Positions 38,284 through 45,142 of a DNA stretch of 64,000 nucleotides are shown here, one piece after another (position 1 is the first letter of the stretch; each line of letters starts with the position of its first letter). This DNA comes from Pararhodobacter oceanensis (lineage in GTDB: Bacteria > Pseudomonadota > Alphaproteobacteria > Rhodobacterales > Rhodobacteraceae), in assembly GCF_003076755.1 (NCBI RefSeq), contig NZ_QDKM01000003.1:372001-436000 (forward strand). Direction: 5' to 3'. Below the pieces are notes generated by a model that saw only the letters and a program-made list of their open reading frames with translations, was not told the DNA's origin and did not search any database. The position numbers and the translations under genes are program-made.

Positions 38284-39663
38284 TTACCCGCAAATCTCGC
38301 CCAGCGCGCCGTCGATGGCGTCGGACATTTGGTCGACATCATCCGCCGTCGAGATCAGTGCCGGTGACAGGCAGAGCGTGTTGTTGAAACCGGGCACCGA
38401 GCGGTTGGTCATGCCGATCTGCACGCCGCGTTTCATCACCGCGCCGACCACCGCCGCGACGGTGGCTTCGGCCAGTGGCTCGCGTGAGGTGCGGTCGGAC
38501 ACCAGTTCGGCGCCGATAAACAGCCCCTTGCCGCGCACCTGCCCGATCACCCGATGCTTCTCCATCAAGGCGTTCAGATTGCCCATCAGCCGCTCACCCA
38601 TGGCGGTGGTGTTCTCCAACAGCCCCTCGTCCTCGATGATCCGCATATTCTCCAGCGCCGCCGCCGGACCGGCGGTGCAGCCGCCAAAGGTCGAGATGTC
38701 GCGGAAGTAGTCCAGCGGGTCATTCGGGTTGCCTTTGAACATCTCGAACACCGCTTCGGTGGTTACGGTGCAGGAGATCGCCGCATAGCCCGAGGCCACG
38801 CCCTTGGCCATGGTGACGATATCGGGCTGCACGCCGTATTGCTGGTAGCCGAACCATTTGCCGGTGCGCCCGACGCCGCAGACCACCTCGTCGATGATCA
38901 GCAGCAGCCCGTATTTCTTGCAGATTTCCTGCACGCGGGGCCAATAGCCCTCGGGCGGGGTGATCACGCCGCCGCCTGCCGTCACCGGCTCGAGAATGAT
39001 CGCGCCGACGGTATCGGGGCCCTCGCGCAGGATCACCTCTTCGATGGCGTTGGCGGCGCGCAAGCCGTAGTCCTCAACCTCGCCCCATTGGCTGCGGTAT
39101 TCGAGGCAATGCGGCACCGGCACAAAGCCTTCGGGATAGGGGCCGTAGAAGGATTTACGCTCTTCCTGCCCGCCCGAGGCCAGCGCGGCGATGGTGGTGC
39201 CGTGGTAGTCGCGCTCACGGTAGAGGATTTTCCACTTCTTGCCGCCATGCACCTGATGGGCGATCTGGCGCACCATCTTATAGGCTTTCTCATTCGCCTC
39301 GGAGCCGGAGTTCGAGTAATAGACCCGCGTCATACCGGGCATTTTCTCGATCAGACGCTGGGCGAACATCGCGCCGGGGATCGAGCCTGCGGACCCGGCG
39401 AAATAGTTCATCTTGAGCAGTTGATCGCGCACCACATTGGCGATGCTTTCGCGCCCGTAGCCGACGTTGACCGTCCAGACCCCGCCCGAAACCGCGTCCA
39501 GCGTTTCGCGGCCGGTAGCATCCCAGACCCGCAGGCCCTTGCCCTCGACAATCACCCGCGGATCGACGGCTTCATATTGTTTGTGCTGGCTCAAATGGTG
39601 CCAGACGTGAATGCGGTCAGCCTCGACCACCTCGCTCAGATCGTTGATGTTTGACGTATCCAT
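38284..39663 (-). CDS. tpa: Taurine--pyruvate aminotransferase
   Basis: The 459-residue class III PLP enzyme moves the amino group of taurine to pyruvate, giving sulfoacetaldehyde and alanine. RVYYSNSGSEANEKAYKM, LLLIIDEVVCGVGRTG (Asp258) and TMAKGVASGYA with the Schiff-base Lys287 are present. The start ATG 39663 has a GGGGG-rich site; an in-frame start at 39732 lies within the regulatory region. Identification rests on fold plus neighbours tauR and xsc, the same order as in R. capsulatus. Two direct repeats 75-107 bases upstream are probable TauR sites. Confidence 0.93.
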   Translation of the reverse strand: MDTSNINDLSEVVEADRIHVWHHLSQHKQYEAVDPRVIVEGKGLRVWDATGRETLDAVSGGVWTVNVGYGRESIANVVRDQLLKMNYFAGSAGSIPGAMFAQRLIEKMPGMTRVYYSNSGSEANEKAYKMVRQIAHQVHGGKKWKILYRERDYHGTTIAALASGGQEERKSFYGPYPEGFVPVPHCLEYRSQWGEVEDYGLRAANAIEEVILREGPDTVGAIILEPVTAGGGVITPPEGYWPRVQEICKKYGLLLIIDEVVCGVGRTGKWFGYQQYGVQPDIVTMAKGVASGYAAISCTVTTEAVFEMFKGNPNDPLDYFRDISTFGGCTAGPAAALENMRIIEDEGLLENTTAMGERLMGNLNALMEKHRVIGQVRGKGLFIGAELVSDRTSREPLAEATVAAVVGAVMKRGVQIGMTNRSVPGFNNTLCLSPALISTADDVDQMSDAIDGALGEICG

Positions 39664-39737
39664 GGCGCAACCCCCTTTTGCCGGCAAATGCCGGGCCGAA
39701 ACTATCGCCTGACACTCGCCCTTTCCTAGCACCTTCG

Positions 39738-39770
39738 ATAGCGCCAGTTATACCCTATTCATATCGCCAG
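39738..39770 (-). promoter_or_regulatory. Putative TauR operator upstream of tpa (two direct repeats)
   Basis: On the minus strand CTGGCGATAT (39761-39770) and CTGGCGCTAT (39738-39747) repeat with a 23-base period, about two helical turns. They lie 75-107 bases upstream of tpa and 53-85 upstream of tauR. TauR of R. capsulatus is known to bind direct repeats before tpa. A matching-period pair lies before xsc. Confidence 0.6.
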
Positions 39771-39822
39771 AACCCGCTAAAGTGAAGTTGAGCGGGGCGG
39801 CAGAACAGGAAGGGCGTGCGGG

Positions 39823-41298
39823 ATGAGTGTTTCGGTGGAAAGCTTCCTGATGGACCCGCATCACGATGGCACGCTGCAAAGCCGTATCCGGCAGATGGTC
39901 GCGCAGGGGATATTGTCCGGGCGGATGCGGCGCGGTGAGCGCATGCCTTCGAGCCGCAAACTGGCTGCGCATCTGGGGGTCAGCCGGATCACCGTGACGC
40001 TGGCCTACGCCGATCTCGTTGCCGATGATTACCTGCGTGCCGAGGGGCGCTCGGGGTATTTCGTGTCCGAGGGTGCGCCCGAACCCGGCGACCACCCGCC
40101 CGCGCGGGCCAGCGGCGGGGATGCGGTGGATTGGGGGCGGATGCTGGGCCATCGGCCGGAGTCGGTGCCGATGAGCCTTGGCAAGCCGCGCAACTGGCGC
40201 GATTTCCGCTATCCTTTCGTCTACGGGCAGGCCGATCCGACGCTGTTTGATCACGCCAATTGGCGCGGCTGTATGTTGCAGGCTTTGGGGCAAAAGGATT
40301 TCGCCCTGATGACCGATGATAATTTCGACCATGATGACCCCGCGCTGGTCGAATATATCGCCCGCCACACGCTGCCACGGCGGGGAATTCTGGCCGCGCC
40401 TGATGAGATACTGGTCACGCTGGGCGCGCAGAACGCGCTCTGGCTGACCGCGCAACTTTTGCTGAACCAGCGGCGCACGGCGGCGATTGAGGACCCCGGC
40501 TATCCCGGGTTGCGCGAGATCCTGCGCCAGACCCGTTGCCGCGTGGTGCCGGTGCCGGTCGGCGCGCAGGGGCTGGAGCCCGCGCGCGTGCCTGCAGGCA
40601 CCGACATCCTGTTTTGCACGCCGAGCCACCATTGCCCGACCGGCGCGACTCTGCCGCTGGAGGCGCGTCACGCGCTGCTGCACGAGGCCGCCGCGCGCAA
40701 CACGCTGATTGTCGAAGATGATTATGAATTCGAGATCACCCATGGCCGCGCGCCCCTGCCGGCGCTGAAATCGCTGGACCGCGAGGGGCGGGTGATCCAT
40801 GTCGGCAGCTTCTCGAAATCACTATTTCCGGGGCTGCGGCTGGGGTTTCTGGTCGGCCCCGCGCCGTTCATCCGCGAGGCGCGGGCATTGCGTGCGACGG
40901 TGCTGCGCCACCCGCCCGGCCTGTTGCAGCGCGCCGCCTCGCATTTTCTCTCGTTGGGCTATTACGACGCGATGCTGCGCCGTCTCACGCGCAGTTTCTC
41001 GCAACGCCGCGCGGTTCTGCTGGAAGCTGCACAGGCCGAAGGGCTGACGATAGGCGGCGCGGTGGATGTTGGCGGCTCGAGCCTATGGATGCGCACGCCG
41101 CAGGGCGTCAGCGCCGAGACCTTGGCGCGCGATCTGCATGAGGACAGCGTGCTGATTGAGCCCGGCGCGCGGTTTTTCGACCGGCCCGAGGAGGGCGACC
41201 GCTATTACCGCATCGCCTACTCCTCGATCACCGAAGAGCGTATCCCCGAGGGGATCGCCCGCATTGCCCGCCGGTTGCGCAGCGGAAACTGGACCTAG
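39823..41298 (+). CDS. tauR: TauR-type MocR/GntR family transcriptional activator
   Basis: The 491-residue product has an N-terminal GntR winged helix (RIRQMVAQGILSGRMRRGER, PSSRKLAAHLGVSRITVTLA) and a class I aminotransferase-like domain with the PLP lysine in GSFSKSLFPGLRLGF (about K332). MocR regulators bind PLP and a metabolite; in R. capsulatus TauR activates tpa when taurine is present. It is divergent from tpa and 119 bases before xsc. The gene is given from ATG 39823 with AGGAAGGG upstream. Function is inferred from order and family. Confidence 0.9.
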   Translation: MSVSVESFLMDPHHDGTLQSRIRQMVAQGILSGRMRRGERMPSSRKLAAHLGVSRITVTLAYADLVADDYLRAEGRSGYFVSEGAPEPGDHPPARASGGDAVDWGRMLGHRPESVPMSLGKPRNWRDFRYPFVYGQADPTLFDHANWRGCMLQALGQKDFALMTDDNFDHDDPALVEYIARHTLPRRGILAAPDEILVTLGAQNALWLTAQLLLNQRRTAAIEDPGYPGLREILRQTRCRVVPVPVGAQGLEPARVPAGTDILFCTPSHHCPTGATLPLEARHALLHEAAARNTLIVEDDYEFEITHGRAPLPALKSLDREGRVIHVGSFSKSLFPGLRLGFLVGPAPFIREARALRATVLRHPPGLLQRAASHFLSLGYYDAMLRRLTRSFSQRRAVLLEAAQAEGLTIGGAVDVGGSSLWMRTPQGVSAETLARDLHEDSVLIEPGARFFDRPEEGDRYYRIAYSSITEERIPEGIARIARRLRSGNWT

Positions 41299-41321
41299 AT
41301 ATGCGCAGGTTTTGGCCCTAA
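41289..41321 (+). promoter_or_regulatory. Putative TauR operator upstream of xsc (two direct repeats)
   Basis: CTGGACCTAG (41289-41298, overlapping the tauR stop codon) and TTGGCCCTAA (41312-41321) have the same 23-base period as the pair before tpa. Together the four halves give a YTGGMSMTA core. The xsc start is 97 bases further on. Confidence 0.55.
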
Positions 41322-41417
41322 ACTTTCCGGCCATAGCGGATAGATCAGAGCCAACGCAGCTTTGCGCGATCCGACCCGCCAAAGCCCCGACACCATCCAA
41401 TTGCAAGGACCACCGCG

Positions 41418-43193
41418 ATGAAAATGACCACCGAAGAAGCCTTTGTCAAAACGCTGCAATTGCATGGGATCGCGCATGCCTTCGGGATTATCGGCTCGGC
41501 GATGATGCCGGTCTCGGACCTGTTCCCGAAGGCGGGGATTATGTTTTGGGACTGCGCGCATGAGGGCAGCGCGGGGATGATGGCCGATGGTTACACGCGC
41601 GCCAGTGGCAGAATGTCGATGATGATCGCGCAGAATGGCCCCGGTATCACCAATTTCGTCACCGCGGTGAAAACCGCCTATTGGAACCACACGCCGCTGC
41701 TGCTGGTGACCCCGCAGGCGGCGAATAAGACCATCGGACAGGGCGGTTTCCAAGAGGTCGAGCAGATGAAGCTGTTCGAGGATATGGTCGCCTATCAAGA
41801 GGAGGTGCGTGATCCCTCGCGGGTGGTCGAAGTGCTCAACCGGGTGATCCTCAACGCCAAACGCGCCAGTGCGCCGGCGCAGATCAACATCCCGCGCGAT
41901 TACTGGACGCAGGTGATTGATGTGGACCTGCCGCAGGTGCTGGAATTCGAGCGTCCCGCGGGTGGCGAAGCGGCGGTGGCGCAGGCGGCGGAACTGCTGT
42001 CGGGGGCGCAGAATCCGGTGATCCTGAACGGTGCAGGTGTGGTGTTAGCCAAGGGCGGGATCGCCGCCTCGATGGCGCTGGCCGAGCGCTTGGATGCGCC
42101 GGTTTGCGTCGGCTACCAGCATAACGACGCCTTCCCCGGCTCGCATCCGCTGTTTGCCGGACCCTTGGGGTATAACGGCTCGAAAGCAGCGATGGAGCTG
42201 ATTTCCGAGGCTGATGTGGTGCTCTGTCTGGGCACGCGGTTGAACCCGTTTTCGACGCTGCCGGGCTACGGGATGGAGTATTGGCCCGATAAGGCCAAGA
42301 TCATTCAGGTGGATATCAATCCCGACCGGATCGGGCTGACCAAGACGGTCAGCGTTGGTATTGTCGGGGATGCGGCCAAGGTTGCGACGGGTATCTTGGC
42401 GCAACTGTCGGTGACGGCAGGAGACGCGGGGCGCGCGGCGCGCAAGGCGAAGATTGCTCAGAAGAAATCGGCTTGGGCGCAGCAGCTATCCTCAATGGAT
42501 CACGAAGACGACGATCCCGGCACCGATTGGAACCAGCGCGCCCGCGCCGATAAGCCCGCGTGGATGAGCCCGCGCATGGCGTGGCGGGCGATACAGGCGG
42601 CGCTGCCGGTCGAAGCGATCATCTCCTCGGACATCGGCAACAATTGCGCGATCGGTAATGCCTATCCGTCGTTCGAGACGGGGCGCAAATATCTGGCGCC
42701 GGGGTTGTTCGGCCCCTGCGGCTACGGGCTGCCCGCGATTGTCGGCGCCAAGATCGCCTGCCCCGATGTGCCGGTGGTCGGTTTTGCCGGTGACGGGGCA
42801 TTTGGCATCGCGGTGAATGAGTTGACCGCCATTGGCCGCGAAGAATGGCCGGCGGTGACGCAGGTGGTGTTCCGCAACTACCAATGGGGCGCGGAAAAGC
42901 GCAACTCGACGCTGTGGTTTGACGATAATTTCGTCGGCACCGAATTGGATACAAAGGTTAGCTATGCGGGGATCGCCCAAGCCTGCGGCCTCAAGGGCGT
43001 GGTCGCGCGGACGATGGCGGAACTGACCGAGGCGCTGGATCAGGCGCTCAAGGACCAGAAGGCGGGGATTACCACGCTGATTGAGGCGATGATCAATCAG
43101 GAACTCGGTGAGCCGTTCCGCCGTGACGCGATGAAAAAGCCGGTGGAAGTGGCGGGGATTGATGCCGCTGATATGCGGGCGCAGGAGGCCTAA
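41418..43193 (+). CDS. xsc: Sulfoacetaldehyde acetyltransferase
   Basis: The 591-residue thiamine diphosphate enzyme cleaves sulfoacetaldehyde with phosphate to acetyl phosphate and sulfite. EGSAGMMADGYTRASGRMSM, the ThDP-binding GDGAFGIAVNELTAI and IGSAMMPVSDLFPKAG at the N-terminus are present, with the family length. AAGGA lies before ATG 41418. It follows tauR on the same strand and is convergent with pta, which uses its product acetyl phosphate. Confidence 0.96.
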   Translation: MKMTTEEAFVKTLQLHGIAHAFGIIGSAMMPVSDLFPKAGIMFWDCAHEGSAGMMADGYTRASGRMSMMIAQNGPGITNFVTAVKTAYWNHTPLLLVTPQAANKTIGQGGFQEVEQMKLFEDMVAYQEEVRDPSRVVEVLNRVILNAKRASAPAQINIPRDYWTQVIDVDLPQVLEFERPAGGEAAVAQAAELLSGAQNPVILNGAGVVLAKGGIAASMALAERLDAPVCVGYQHNDAFPGSHPLFAGPLGYNGSKAAMELISEADVVLCLGTRLNPFSTLPGYGMEYWPDKAKIIQVDINPDRIGLTKTVSVGIVGDAAKVATGILAQLSVTAGDAGRAARKAKIAQKKSAWAQQLSSMDHEDDDPGTDWNQRARADKPAWMSPRMAWRAIQAALPVEAIISSDIGNNCAIGNAYPSFETGRKYLAPGLFGPCGYGLPAIVGAKIACPDVPVVGFAGDGAFGIAVNELTAIGREEWPAVTQVVFRNYQWGAEKRNSTLWFDDNFVGTELDTKVSYAGIAQACGLKGVVARTMAELTEALDQALKDQKAGITTLIEAMINQELGEPFRRDAMKKPVEVAGIDAADMRAQEA

Positions 43194-43213: not shown

Positions 43214-44089
43214 TTAGCCCATCGCCAGAGTGATCGCGGTGGCGCTGACGATATCGGCAACAGAGGCGCCGCGGCTCAGGTCGCAGACGGGGCAGCGGAA
43301 GCCTTGCAGGAAGGGGCCGAGCGCCTGCGCGCCAGCCAGTTCCTGCAGCAGTTTATAGGCGATATTGCCCGCATCCAGTGAGGGGAAGATCAGTGTATTG
43401 GCGACACCGCCTGCGTAGCCCTTCTTGGCGGCGATCACCGCGTTCAGCGCCGCATCGGCCTGCACTGGCCCCGCAAATCCGCTGGCCTCGCAAGCCGCGC
43501 GCACGATGTCTACCGAGGCCCCCTGCCCCGATGCGCCGGTGGAAAACGACAAGAGCGCCACATGCGCCTCGCCGAGCAGGGCGCGGGCGGATCTTGCACT
43601 GGCACGGGCGATATCGGCGAGTTGTGCGGCGTCCGGCGCGGTGTTGACGGCGCAATCGGCAAAGACCAGCGGGCGGGCGGGTGCACCGTCGCGGGCGGGC
43701 ATCAACATCAGGAAAAAGCTGGAGGGCGTGGTGACGCCTTCGGCCATGCCGATGGCCAGCGACGCGGCTTCGATCACGCGGCGGGTGGGATGGGTGGCAC
43801 CGGCAACCATCGCCTCGGCCTCGCCCGCCGCGACCATCGCCGCGGCGCGGATCAGGGGTTTTTCCAGCATCCGCCGCGCCAGCGCAGGCTTCAGCGTGGG
43901 GCGGTTGACCAGCAGCAGGTCGACATAAGCCTCGGCAGGACGCGCGGCCTCCAGTGTCAGCGGTTCGGCCAACCCCTCGGCGCGCAGCCGCGCGGCGGCT
44001 TCGGCAATGCGCGGATCCTCCATTTCCGGCAGGACCACCCGCGCGCCGCGTGTTTTCGCAGCCTCAAATGCGCGCCCTACTACATCCAT
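43214..44089 (-). CDS. pta: Phosphate acetyltransferase (single-domain)
   Basis: The 291-residue product is a PTA_PTB-domain enzyme: RVVLPEMEDPRIAEAAARLR at the start, AEAMVAGATHPTRRVIEA, and SFSTGASGQGASVDIVRAA, GYAGGVANTLIFPSLDAGNIA near the C-terminus. It converts acetyl phosphate from Xsc to acetyl-CoA. It is shorter than many Pta proteins and lacks the N-terminal DRTGG and CobB-like regions of the long form, as in Xsc-linked homologues. The start ATG 44089 has GGAGGGCAGG upstream. It is convergent with xsc rather than downstream, a small rearrangement from other strains. Confidence 0.9.
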   Translation of the reverse strand: MDVVGRAFEAAKTRGARVVLPEMEDPRIAEAAARLRAEGLAEPLTLEAARPAEAYVDLLLVNRPTLKPALARRMLEKPLIRAAAMVAAGEAEAMVAGATHPTRRVIEAASLAIGMAEGVTTPSSFFLMLMPARDGAPARPLVFADCAVNTAPDAAQLADIARASARSARALLGEAHVALLSFSTGASGQGASVDIVRAACEASGFAGPVQADAALNAVIAAKKGYAGGVANTLIFPSLDAGNIAYKLLQELAGAQALGPFLQGFRCPVCDLSRGASVADIVSATAITLAMG

Positions 44090-44263
44090 CCTGCCCTCCG
44101 TTTCCTGCTTGATGCAGACTGCCGATATAGCGCAGACGGTCAAGCGCAACCGGCACCGCCAGAGGGCCCGAGGCAGCTTGCCACCAGCGGCATCGCAAGG
44201 AACCTTGCACTTGTGTAACGCCGCAGCGTATTGAGGCGGAGTGGTGACGGTGAGGAATGTTGG

Positions 44264-45142
44264 ATGGAACAAGGGCAGTCTCAGCCGTTCAAAGCGGCTC
44301 TGTGGATGTGCGGGGCGATTGCCTCCTTCACCTTTATGGCGGTGGCCGGACGCACGGTGCAGACCGAGCTCAACACCTTCGAGCTGATGTTCTGGCGCTC
44401 GTTCCTTGGCATGCTGATTGTGCTGGCGATCATCCGCTGGCGCACCGGCGAGTTCGCGGCGATCCGCACCCGCCATTGGGGGCTGCATCTGACGCGCAAT
44501 ATCTTCCACTTTTTCGGCCAGAACATGTGGTTCTACGGCATCGCGGTGATCCCGCTGTCGCAACTGGTGGCGCTGGAGTTCACCATGCCGATCTGGGTGC
44601 TGCTGCTGGCGCCGCTGTTTTTGGGCGAGGTGCTGACGCGGCGCAAACTGATTGTCGCGCTGATCGGCTTTATCGGCGTGCTGGTGGTGGCGCAACCGGG
44701 GGTGCAACCCTTGAGCAGCGGCCATGCGGCGGGGATATTGGCGGCGGTGGCCTTTGCGGTGAACCTGATATTCACCCGCAAGATCATGCTGCATGACGCG
44801 GTGCTCTGCGTGTTGTTCTGGATGACCCTCAGCCAGACGGTGATGGGGCTTGGCCTGTCACTGGCCAGCGGCTTTACATGGCCCAGTCTGGCGCTGTCGC
44901 CGTGGCTGGTGATCATCGCGATCACCGGCTTGACCGCGCATTACTCGCTGACCTCGGCGCTGGGGCTGGCACCGGCGATGCTGGTCGCGCCGATGGAATT
45001 TGCCCGCCTGCCGATCATCGCGCTGGTCGGGATGGTGGTCTATGCCGAGGCGCTGGACCCGATGGTGTTCCTTGGCGCGGCGATCATTTTCTCGGCGAAT
45101 TTCTGGAATATGCGCGGCGCAAGAATCCGCAGCCGCGCCTAG
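44264..45142 (+). CDS. EamA/DMT-superfamily transporter
   Basis: The 292-residue product has ten membrane segments in two EamA halves (NTFELMFWRSFLGMLIVLAI, MPIWVLLLAPLFLGEVLTRR). It is divergent from pta. In taurine dissimilation sulfite or an organosulfur compound must leave the cell, but nothing in this sequence shows that this protein does it. ATG 44264 with GAGGAA is preferred to an earlier in-frame codon. Confidence 0.85.
   Translation: MEQGQSQPFKAALWMCGAIASFTFMAVAGRTVQTELNTFELMFWRSFLGMLIVLAIIRWRTGEFAAIRTRHWGLHLTRNIFHFFGQNMWFYGIAVIPLSQLVALEFTMPIWVLLLAPLFLGEVLTRRKLIVALIGFIGVLVVAQPGVQPLSSGHAAGILAAVAFAVNLIFTRKIMLHDAVLCVLFWMTLSQTVMGLGLSLASGFTWPSLALSPWLVIIAITGLTAHYSLTSALGLAPAMLVAPMEFARLPIIALVGMVVYAEALDPMVFLGAAIIFSANFWNMRGARIRSRA

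Follow-up and report, generated by a model that had tools for sequence, protein, structure and literature searches.

Conserved direct-repeat pairs flanking tauR as putative TauR operators for tpa and xsc

The tpa-tauR-xsc locus and its repeat pairs

The locus lies in a 64-kb window, which is the whole stretch of DNA analysed, and comprises a regulator gene that adjoins tpa and xsc, as expected of the TauR orthologue group:

38284 to 39663, minus strand: tpa, encoding a class III aminotransferase (Pfam Aminotran_3), taurine-pyruvate aminotransferase by context
39823 to 41298, plus strand: tauR, encoding a MocR-type regulator (Pfam GntR, residues 19-81, and Aminotran_1_2, residues 174-481, class I aminotransferase-like)
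41418 to 43193, plus strand: xsc, encoding sulfoacetaldehyde acetyltransferase (NCBIfam TIGR03457, 924.7 bits against a cut-off of 676.4)

The regulator has the fusion that defines the MocR subfamily, a GntR DNA-binding domain joined to a class I aminotransferase-like domain. Its closest full-length solved relatives are 7pq9 and the GabR entries 4n0b and 4mgr, and by pairwise identity rather than a tree it is 49% identical to the tau-locus regulator of S. medicae and 52% identical to that of C. sphaeroides. NCBIfam labels it PdxR (339.9 bits, cut-off 320), a label that is also reached above cut-off by all three regulators taken from tau loci (C. sphaeroides 2.4.1, S. medicae WSM419 and Tropicimonas) and that therefore fails to separate TauR from PdxR. 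Automatic annotation may name TauR proteins PdxR, given that the NCBIfam PdxR equivalog model takes in tau-locus regulators. Six other places in the same genome match the regulator; identity is at most 32% over stretches of at least 185 residues and 38% over two stretches of 65-73 residues in the DNA-binding part. We assigned tpa by domain and context; its product reached the cut-off of none of the 25 NCBIfam families shown. We placed its start at the ATG at 39663, where relatives begin aligning; the open frame extends further upstream.

Two pairs of direct repeats flank tauR, one within the 159 bases that separate tpa from the divergently oriented tauR, the other ahead of xsc:

39761 to 39770 (read from 39770 to 39761), minus strand: box 1 (distal repeat) of the putative tpa operator, CTGGCGATAT; pair score 28.3 bits, second best in the window
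39738 to 39747 (read from 39747 to 39738), minus strand: box 2 (promoter-proximal repeat) of the putative tpa operator, CTGGCGCTAT; 23 bases from box 1, the pair being kept in relatives
41289 to 41298, plus strand: box 1 (distal repeat) of the putative xsc operator, CTGGACCTAG; it ends with the three bases of the tauR stop codon; the pair scores 30.3 bits, the best in the window
41312 to 41321, plus strand: box 2 (promoter-proximal repeat) of the putative xsc operator, TTGGCCCTAA; 23 bases from box 1

An earlier note on this DNA had pointed out these pairs and their common period, and comparison of the letters of all four repeats confirmed both the positions and the 23-base period exactly. The scores come from a weight matrix trained without the window (see below), by which the next-best place in the 64 kb reached 9.2 bits when both strands and spacings of 20-26 were scanned. 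The xsc boxes differ at one and two positions from the consensus CTGGACYTAA given for the direct repeats of R. capsulatus TauR (PMC5320631, seen in part). The tpa boxes differ at four and three of the ten; support for them comes from relatives.

The same matrix scan of the window bore out the note's statement that no TauR-like pair precedes pta or the TRAP genes. The former (43214-44794, minus strand) is convergent with xsc and has no such pair ahead of it. We considered the TRAP genes from 45263 on as a TauR-controlled taurine importer and rejected this: no operator lies ahead of them, the binding protein they encode shares 24% identity with the TauR-linked one of C. sphaeroides, and nine other places in the genome match the latter better. 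The best of these own-genome matches is 28% identical. A close taurine importer was likewise not found in this genome, where the best TauA-like match is 25% identical.

Conservation of the pairs in related genomes

Conservation was assessed at 110 discovery loci, 80 from a scan of named genomes and 30, including that of the window, from a family-wide search in which 183 of 295 genomes, that of the window among them, gave a match at E up to 1e-80; the sole other genome of the window's genus gave none at that limit. These loci were not thinned for close relatives, and some share sites (L025 and L092, for example). The two genes tpa and tauR are divergent in the window clade; in most other loci tpa is co-directional, elsewhere or outside the sampled stretch.

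A motif-free search, which recorded the most frequent 4-mer repeated at distances of 10 to 60 within 256 bases ahead of a gene, returned CTGG at 23 bases as the top result both before xsc (64 of 79 regions) and before tpa (28 of 61), the window included; the means in shuffled regions were 0.15 and 0.30, respectively. The 61 tpa regions include three of less than 100 bases (L092, L103 and L104) and three miscut at locus ends (L095, L097 and L105). For YTGGNNNTA pairs on the gene strand, the period was 23 in 63 regions before xsc and 37 before tpa, and 22 in 3 and 9; a few xsc regions showed other distances.

A two-box weight matrix was then built from 134 training sites, with the window excluded and the three short tpa regions dropped; two of the 134, entered as 'tpa' for L095 and L097, duplicate the xsc sites of those loci, and L105, which scored -0.2, was left out. 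Once the three miscut regions had been removed, a pair of at least 14.2 bits was present in all 78 xsc and all 54 usable tpa regions, which are the regions that trained the matrix; the maximum among 660 shuffled regions was 12.5 bits. On the reverse strands of the same 132 regions the top scores were 34.8, 16.6, 16.2, 14.7 and 14.7 bits, so that a few of them have pairs, real or fortuitous, on that strand as well. In a Dinoroseobacter MAG, two strong pairs lie upstream of tpa, one on each strand and some 55 bases from each other (L075:525-645), with 34.8 bits at period 24 and 30.0 bits at period 23, and these perhaps serve two divergent units.

For a hold-out set we took 60 further genomes, one per genus, and removed four that were near-identical to discovery loci (at least 92% of tauR DNA), which left 56; their genera may overlap those of the named discovery loci. 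The 14-bit limit used here was fixed when the discovery-region and shuffle scores were known, and was applied to short regions. The earlier note had proposed aligning the upstream regions of related genomes and looking for the 23-base spacing. Within the 260 bases scanned, 37 of 38 hold-out xsc regions contain a pair of at least 14 bits, 33 of them at 23 bases and four at 22, with one region under the limit. The corresponding discovery figures, window included, are 76 at 23, three at 22 and one of 80 under the limit. Among tpa sites, 9 of 56 in the matrix site list have period 22, mostly in Natronohydrobacter-type loci. Repeat spacing is thus kept at 23, less often 22, before xsc in both sets and before tpa in the discovery set.

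Across the 4.08-Mb genome, the exact pattern YTGGNNNTA-N14-YTGGNNNTA occurs at two places, both at this locus. Read backwards as a control it also occurs twice, so the count does not exceed background and the information lies in the location alone. Allowing one mismatch gives 16 places at period 23 (control 44) and 13 at period 22 (control 58). Scored on the printed columns, the known sites reach 25.7 and 23.2 bits and the next two places 19.1 and 17.0 bits. The latter two, on contigs C21 and C2, were rejected as extra sites: with flanks they score 14.6 and 14.9 bits, barely over 14 bits, which implies that a limit meant for short regions would give some background in a whole genome. The first of them lies within an open reading frame. 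No third genomic site of comparable score was seen at periods 22 and 23 with at least 11 of the 12 fixed letters kept.

That box 1 of xsc overlaps the tauR stop codon, as the note had also remarked, is correct, the TAG at 41296-41298 being part of the repeat. This is one arrangement among several. Of 116 xsc sites, 14 have a box 1 that overlaps the stop codon, 41 one that starts 3-20 bases downstream of it, 19 one that lies ahead of it and 42 one that starts further on. The register of the window recurs in 11 loci (window included), where the repeat encodes the last two residues, tryptophan and one other, and the stop.

Promoter geometry and spacing beside tauR

When discovery xsc sites are aligned on the start of box 2, 49 of 78 have a TA at offset 30 and 14 more have it at offset 31 (63/78), with T preferred at offsets 34-35. 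Hold-out sites behave alike, with TA at offset 30 in 22 and at 31 in 13 of 37 (35/37). The sequences thus point to a -10-like element before xsc, 20-21 bases after box 2, which would place box 2 over the -35 position. The tpa sites aligned in the same way show only a G at 28 and an A at 31 that stand out. Candidate elements in the window are:

41341 to 41346, plus strand: possible xsc -10 element TAGATC, at offset 29 from the start of box 2, against 30 or 31 in most relatives
39712 to 39717, minus strand: possible tpa -10 element GAGTGT, at offset 30 from the start of box 2; weak, and suggested by analogy with xsc sites and by the G(28) and A(31) columns
39756 to 39757, no strand assigned: TA at positions 4-5 of the tpa/tauR operator spacer, possibly part of a tauR promoter or of a further half-site

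Another TA ahead of xsc lies at 41334. A plain scan of 39640-41430 gave no canonical sigma-70 promoter, a weak argument since shuffled sequences average 0.2.

Where tpa is divergent from tauR, a single putative operator occupies the gap, with period 23 in 13 and period 22 in 8 of the 21 loci above the limit. The spacer TA at positions 4-5 is found in 11 of the 13 divergent loci with period 23, compared with 2 of 33 other tpa spacers, 2 of 109 xsc spacers and 1 of 84 tauR-adjacent 22-base spacers. This TA could be a tauR -10 or belong to a further half-site; as the divergent loci are related, common descent may also account for it. Since 11 of the 33 other tpa spacers have a TA one position earlier, the feature is not strictly limited to divergent loci. 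We rejected a third, inverted box (ATAGGG) in this spacer as a general feature, only the TA at 4-5 being widespread among the divergent 23-base sites.

Searching the 250 bases before tauR on the opposite strand revealed pairs of at least 14 bits in 77 of the 110 discovery loci (56 at period 22, 20 at 23 and one at 26) and in 43 of the 56 hold-out loci (36 at 22, five at 23, one at 24 and one at 19). No pair reaching that limit was present beside tauR in the other 33 and 13 loci. In the motif-free search, CTGG at 22 was the top result for hold-out tauR upstream regions (30/56). The 89 discovery loci in which tpa is not divergent divide into 48 at 22, seven at 23, one at 26 and 33 with none. A TA at offset 30 occurs in none of 84 tauR-adjacent 22-base sites, against 4 of 12 at 23.

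Where both sites are present and tpa is not divergent, the combination of 22 beside tauR and 23 before xsc accounts for 29 of the 37 such loci in the discovery set and 24 of the 31 in the hold-out, and the reverse combination for no locus in either group. Equal periods occur as 22,22 in two and three and as 23,23 in five and three discovery and hold-out loci, respectively, and one locus in each set has a tauR period of 26 (discovery) or 24 (hold-out). The 22/23 contrast is a reproducible positional pattern and not a strict activation code. The simpler notion that a spacing of 22 means repression only was rejected. The TauR-activated tauA promoter of S. meliloti 1021 carries a pair of 21.3 bits with period 22, and TATTTC stands at offset 30 from the start of its box 2. 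In C. sphaeroides 2.4.1 a pair of period 22 lies between tauR and TRAP genes that are divergent from it, and the Natronohydrobacter-type tpa sites with 22-base pairs also speak against the notion. No title in our literature searches on spacing or autoregulation reported such a contrast, and the spacing figure of PMC5320631, a paper seen in part, lay outside that comparison; we therefore make no claim that it is unpublished.

Interpretation and comparison with known systems

Taken as a whole, the data are best explained if both pairs are operators of TauR that activate tpa and xsc, a reading that we consider very probable from the sequences and that agrees with what the earlier note had proposed; the pairs and their 22/23 spacing are kept at orthologous loci. 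The subunits of MocR dimers of TauR's subfamily are thought to be arranged head to tail. A TauR dimer, encoded between the two pairs, would bind both repeats of one pair, spaced by about two turns of the helix. In the presence of taurine, and of PLP as in characterised relatives, TauR would then activate tpa and xsc. The second repeat would take the -35 place, about 20 bases before the -10, so that bound TauR probably holds RNA polymerase at an intrinsically weak promoter; we infer that activation proceeds through contact at this position. Because the tpa operator would lie within the divergent tpa-tauR gap, TauR may also limit its own synthesis.

The pairs could instead belong to another MocR or GntR regulator with a TGG..TA core, such as PdxR, with TauR acting elsewhere. 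The PdxR label of the window regulator, the TGT or TGG group that is common to many MocR motifs (PMC5320631, in the part available) and the two places in the genome that are 38% identical to TauR over its DNA-binding part all lean that way. Yet the label is borne equally by the three tau-locus regulators, over longer stretches no other MocR-like protein of the genome exceeds 32% identity, the pairs adjoin a gene for a window-type regulator in most loci examined, and the known TauR consensus fits them, which leaves this explanation very improbable. We give still less credence to the idea that the pairs are leftovers, or products of coding or promoter constraints to which no regulator binds. Box 1 of xsc does encode the last two tauR codons and the stop, so that this pair is partly the tauR 3' end, and some of the loci compared are close relatives; but 102 of 116 xsc sites do not overlap the stop codon, 42 of them start more than 20 bases past it with the pair still kept, and a pair also stands before tpa where that gene differs in position and strand.

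A more serious possibility, although on balance an unlikely one, is that the pairs serve only the activation of tpa and xsc and that the operator in the tpa-tauR gap has no effect on tauR expression. In the window 52 bases separate box 1 from the tauR start, compared with 0-16 in most relatives that have a tauR-adjacent pair, and the loci without a 14-bit pair beside tauR (33 of 110 and 13 of 56) imply that such autoregulation is not general. Against this, 22 of the 39 loci in which tpa is co-directional and ends less than 300 bases before tauR keep a pair (19 at 22 and three at 23; 17 have none) with no divergent gene to serve, which points to autoregulation, and GabR represses its own promoter (PMC5320631, seen in part). 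In many relatives the pair beside tauR is perhaps autoregulatory. We also put forward, as a tentative idea that is less likely than not to hold, that a single base splits two kinds of operator within one genome: pairs at 23 activating tpa and xsc, and pairs at 22 beside tauR mainly repressing tauR, with a -10 at the activating distance absent from the 22-base sites of the Rhodobacteraceae-type loci examined. The window clade would have merged both roles through a tpa gene divergent to tauR.

Reading the pairs as TauR operators would support a regulator circuit for taurine use in one more alphaproteobacterium. It would also give a quantitative picture of a direct-repeat operator, with near-fixed spacing, a near-fixed -10 distance before xsc and a separate class at the regulator gene. 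The 22/23 contrast lends itself to a simple test, by mutation, of how spacing is read by a MocR dimer.

Recognition of direct repeats is uncommon in the GntR family of regulators. GabR responds to GABA, and is unlike TauR in this signal and in having another conserved motif. It is a MocR regulator of Bacillus subtilis that acts on direct repeats (PMC5320631, available part). According to the same source, the distance between repeats is generally constant within a group, with slight variation possible.

The tauR-tauA region of S. meliloti 1021, where taurine induction of the tauA promoter needs TauR (PMC4254191, seen in part), has the same kind of repeats as the window, on the strand leading away from tauR, but differs in its period of 22 and in its target, the tauABC transporter. 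The text of PMC4254191 mentions neither 'direct repeat' nor 'operator', and no TauR repeat sequence or consensus was found in the text of the isethionate paper. A possible third, weaker repeat lies 23 bases after the second in the tauA promoter (L184:1911-1965), with 19.3 bits as a pair.

The TauR operator of R. capsulatus was reportedly located in the tpa promoter by Wiethaus et al. in 2008. The window resembles that system in its MocR regulator, in direct repeats of the CTGGACYTAA type and in the taurine genes concerned; it departs from it in the tpa repeats, which stray from the consensus to the extent given above, and has tpa divergent from tauR. Predicted alphaproteobacterial TauR regulons include tpa and xsc (Suvorova and Rodionov 2016, PMC5320631, available part) and list in addition tauABC, tauMLK, tauXY, pta, ackA, tauE and tauZ; they are broader than what we find here, where only the tpa and xsc sites were detected in the genome. 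Direct repeats recognised by TauR, and tpa and xsc as its targets, have already been described or predicted in Alphaproteobacteria, so the window is a further instance.
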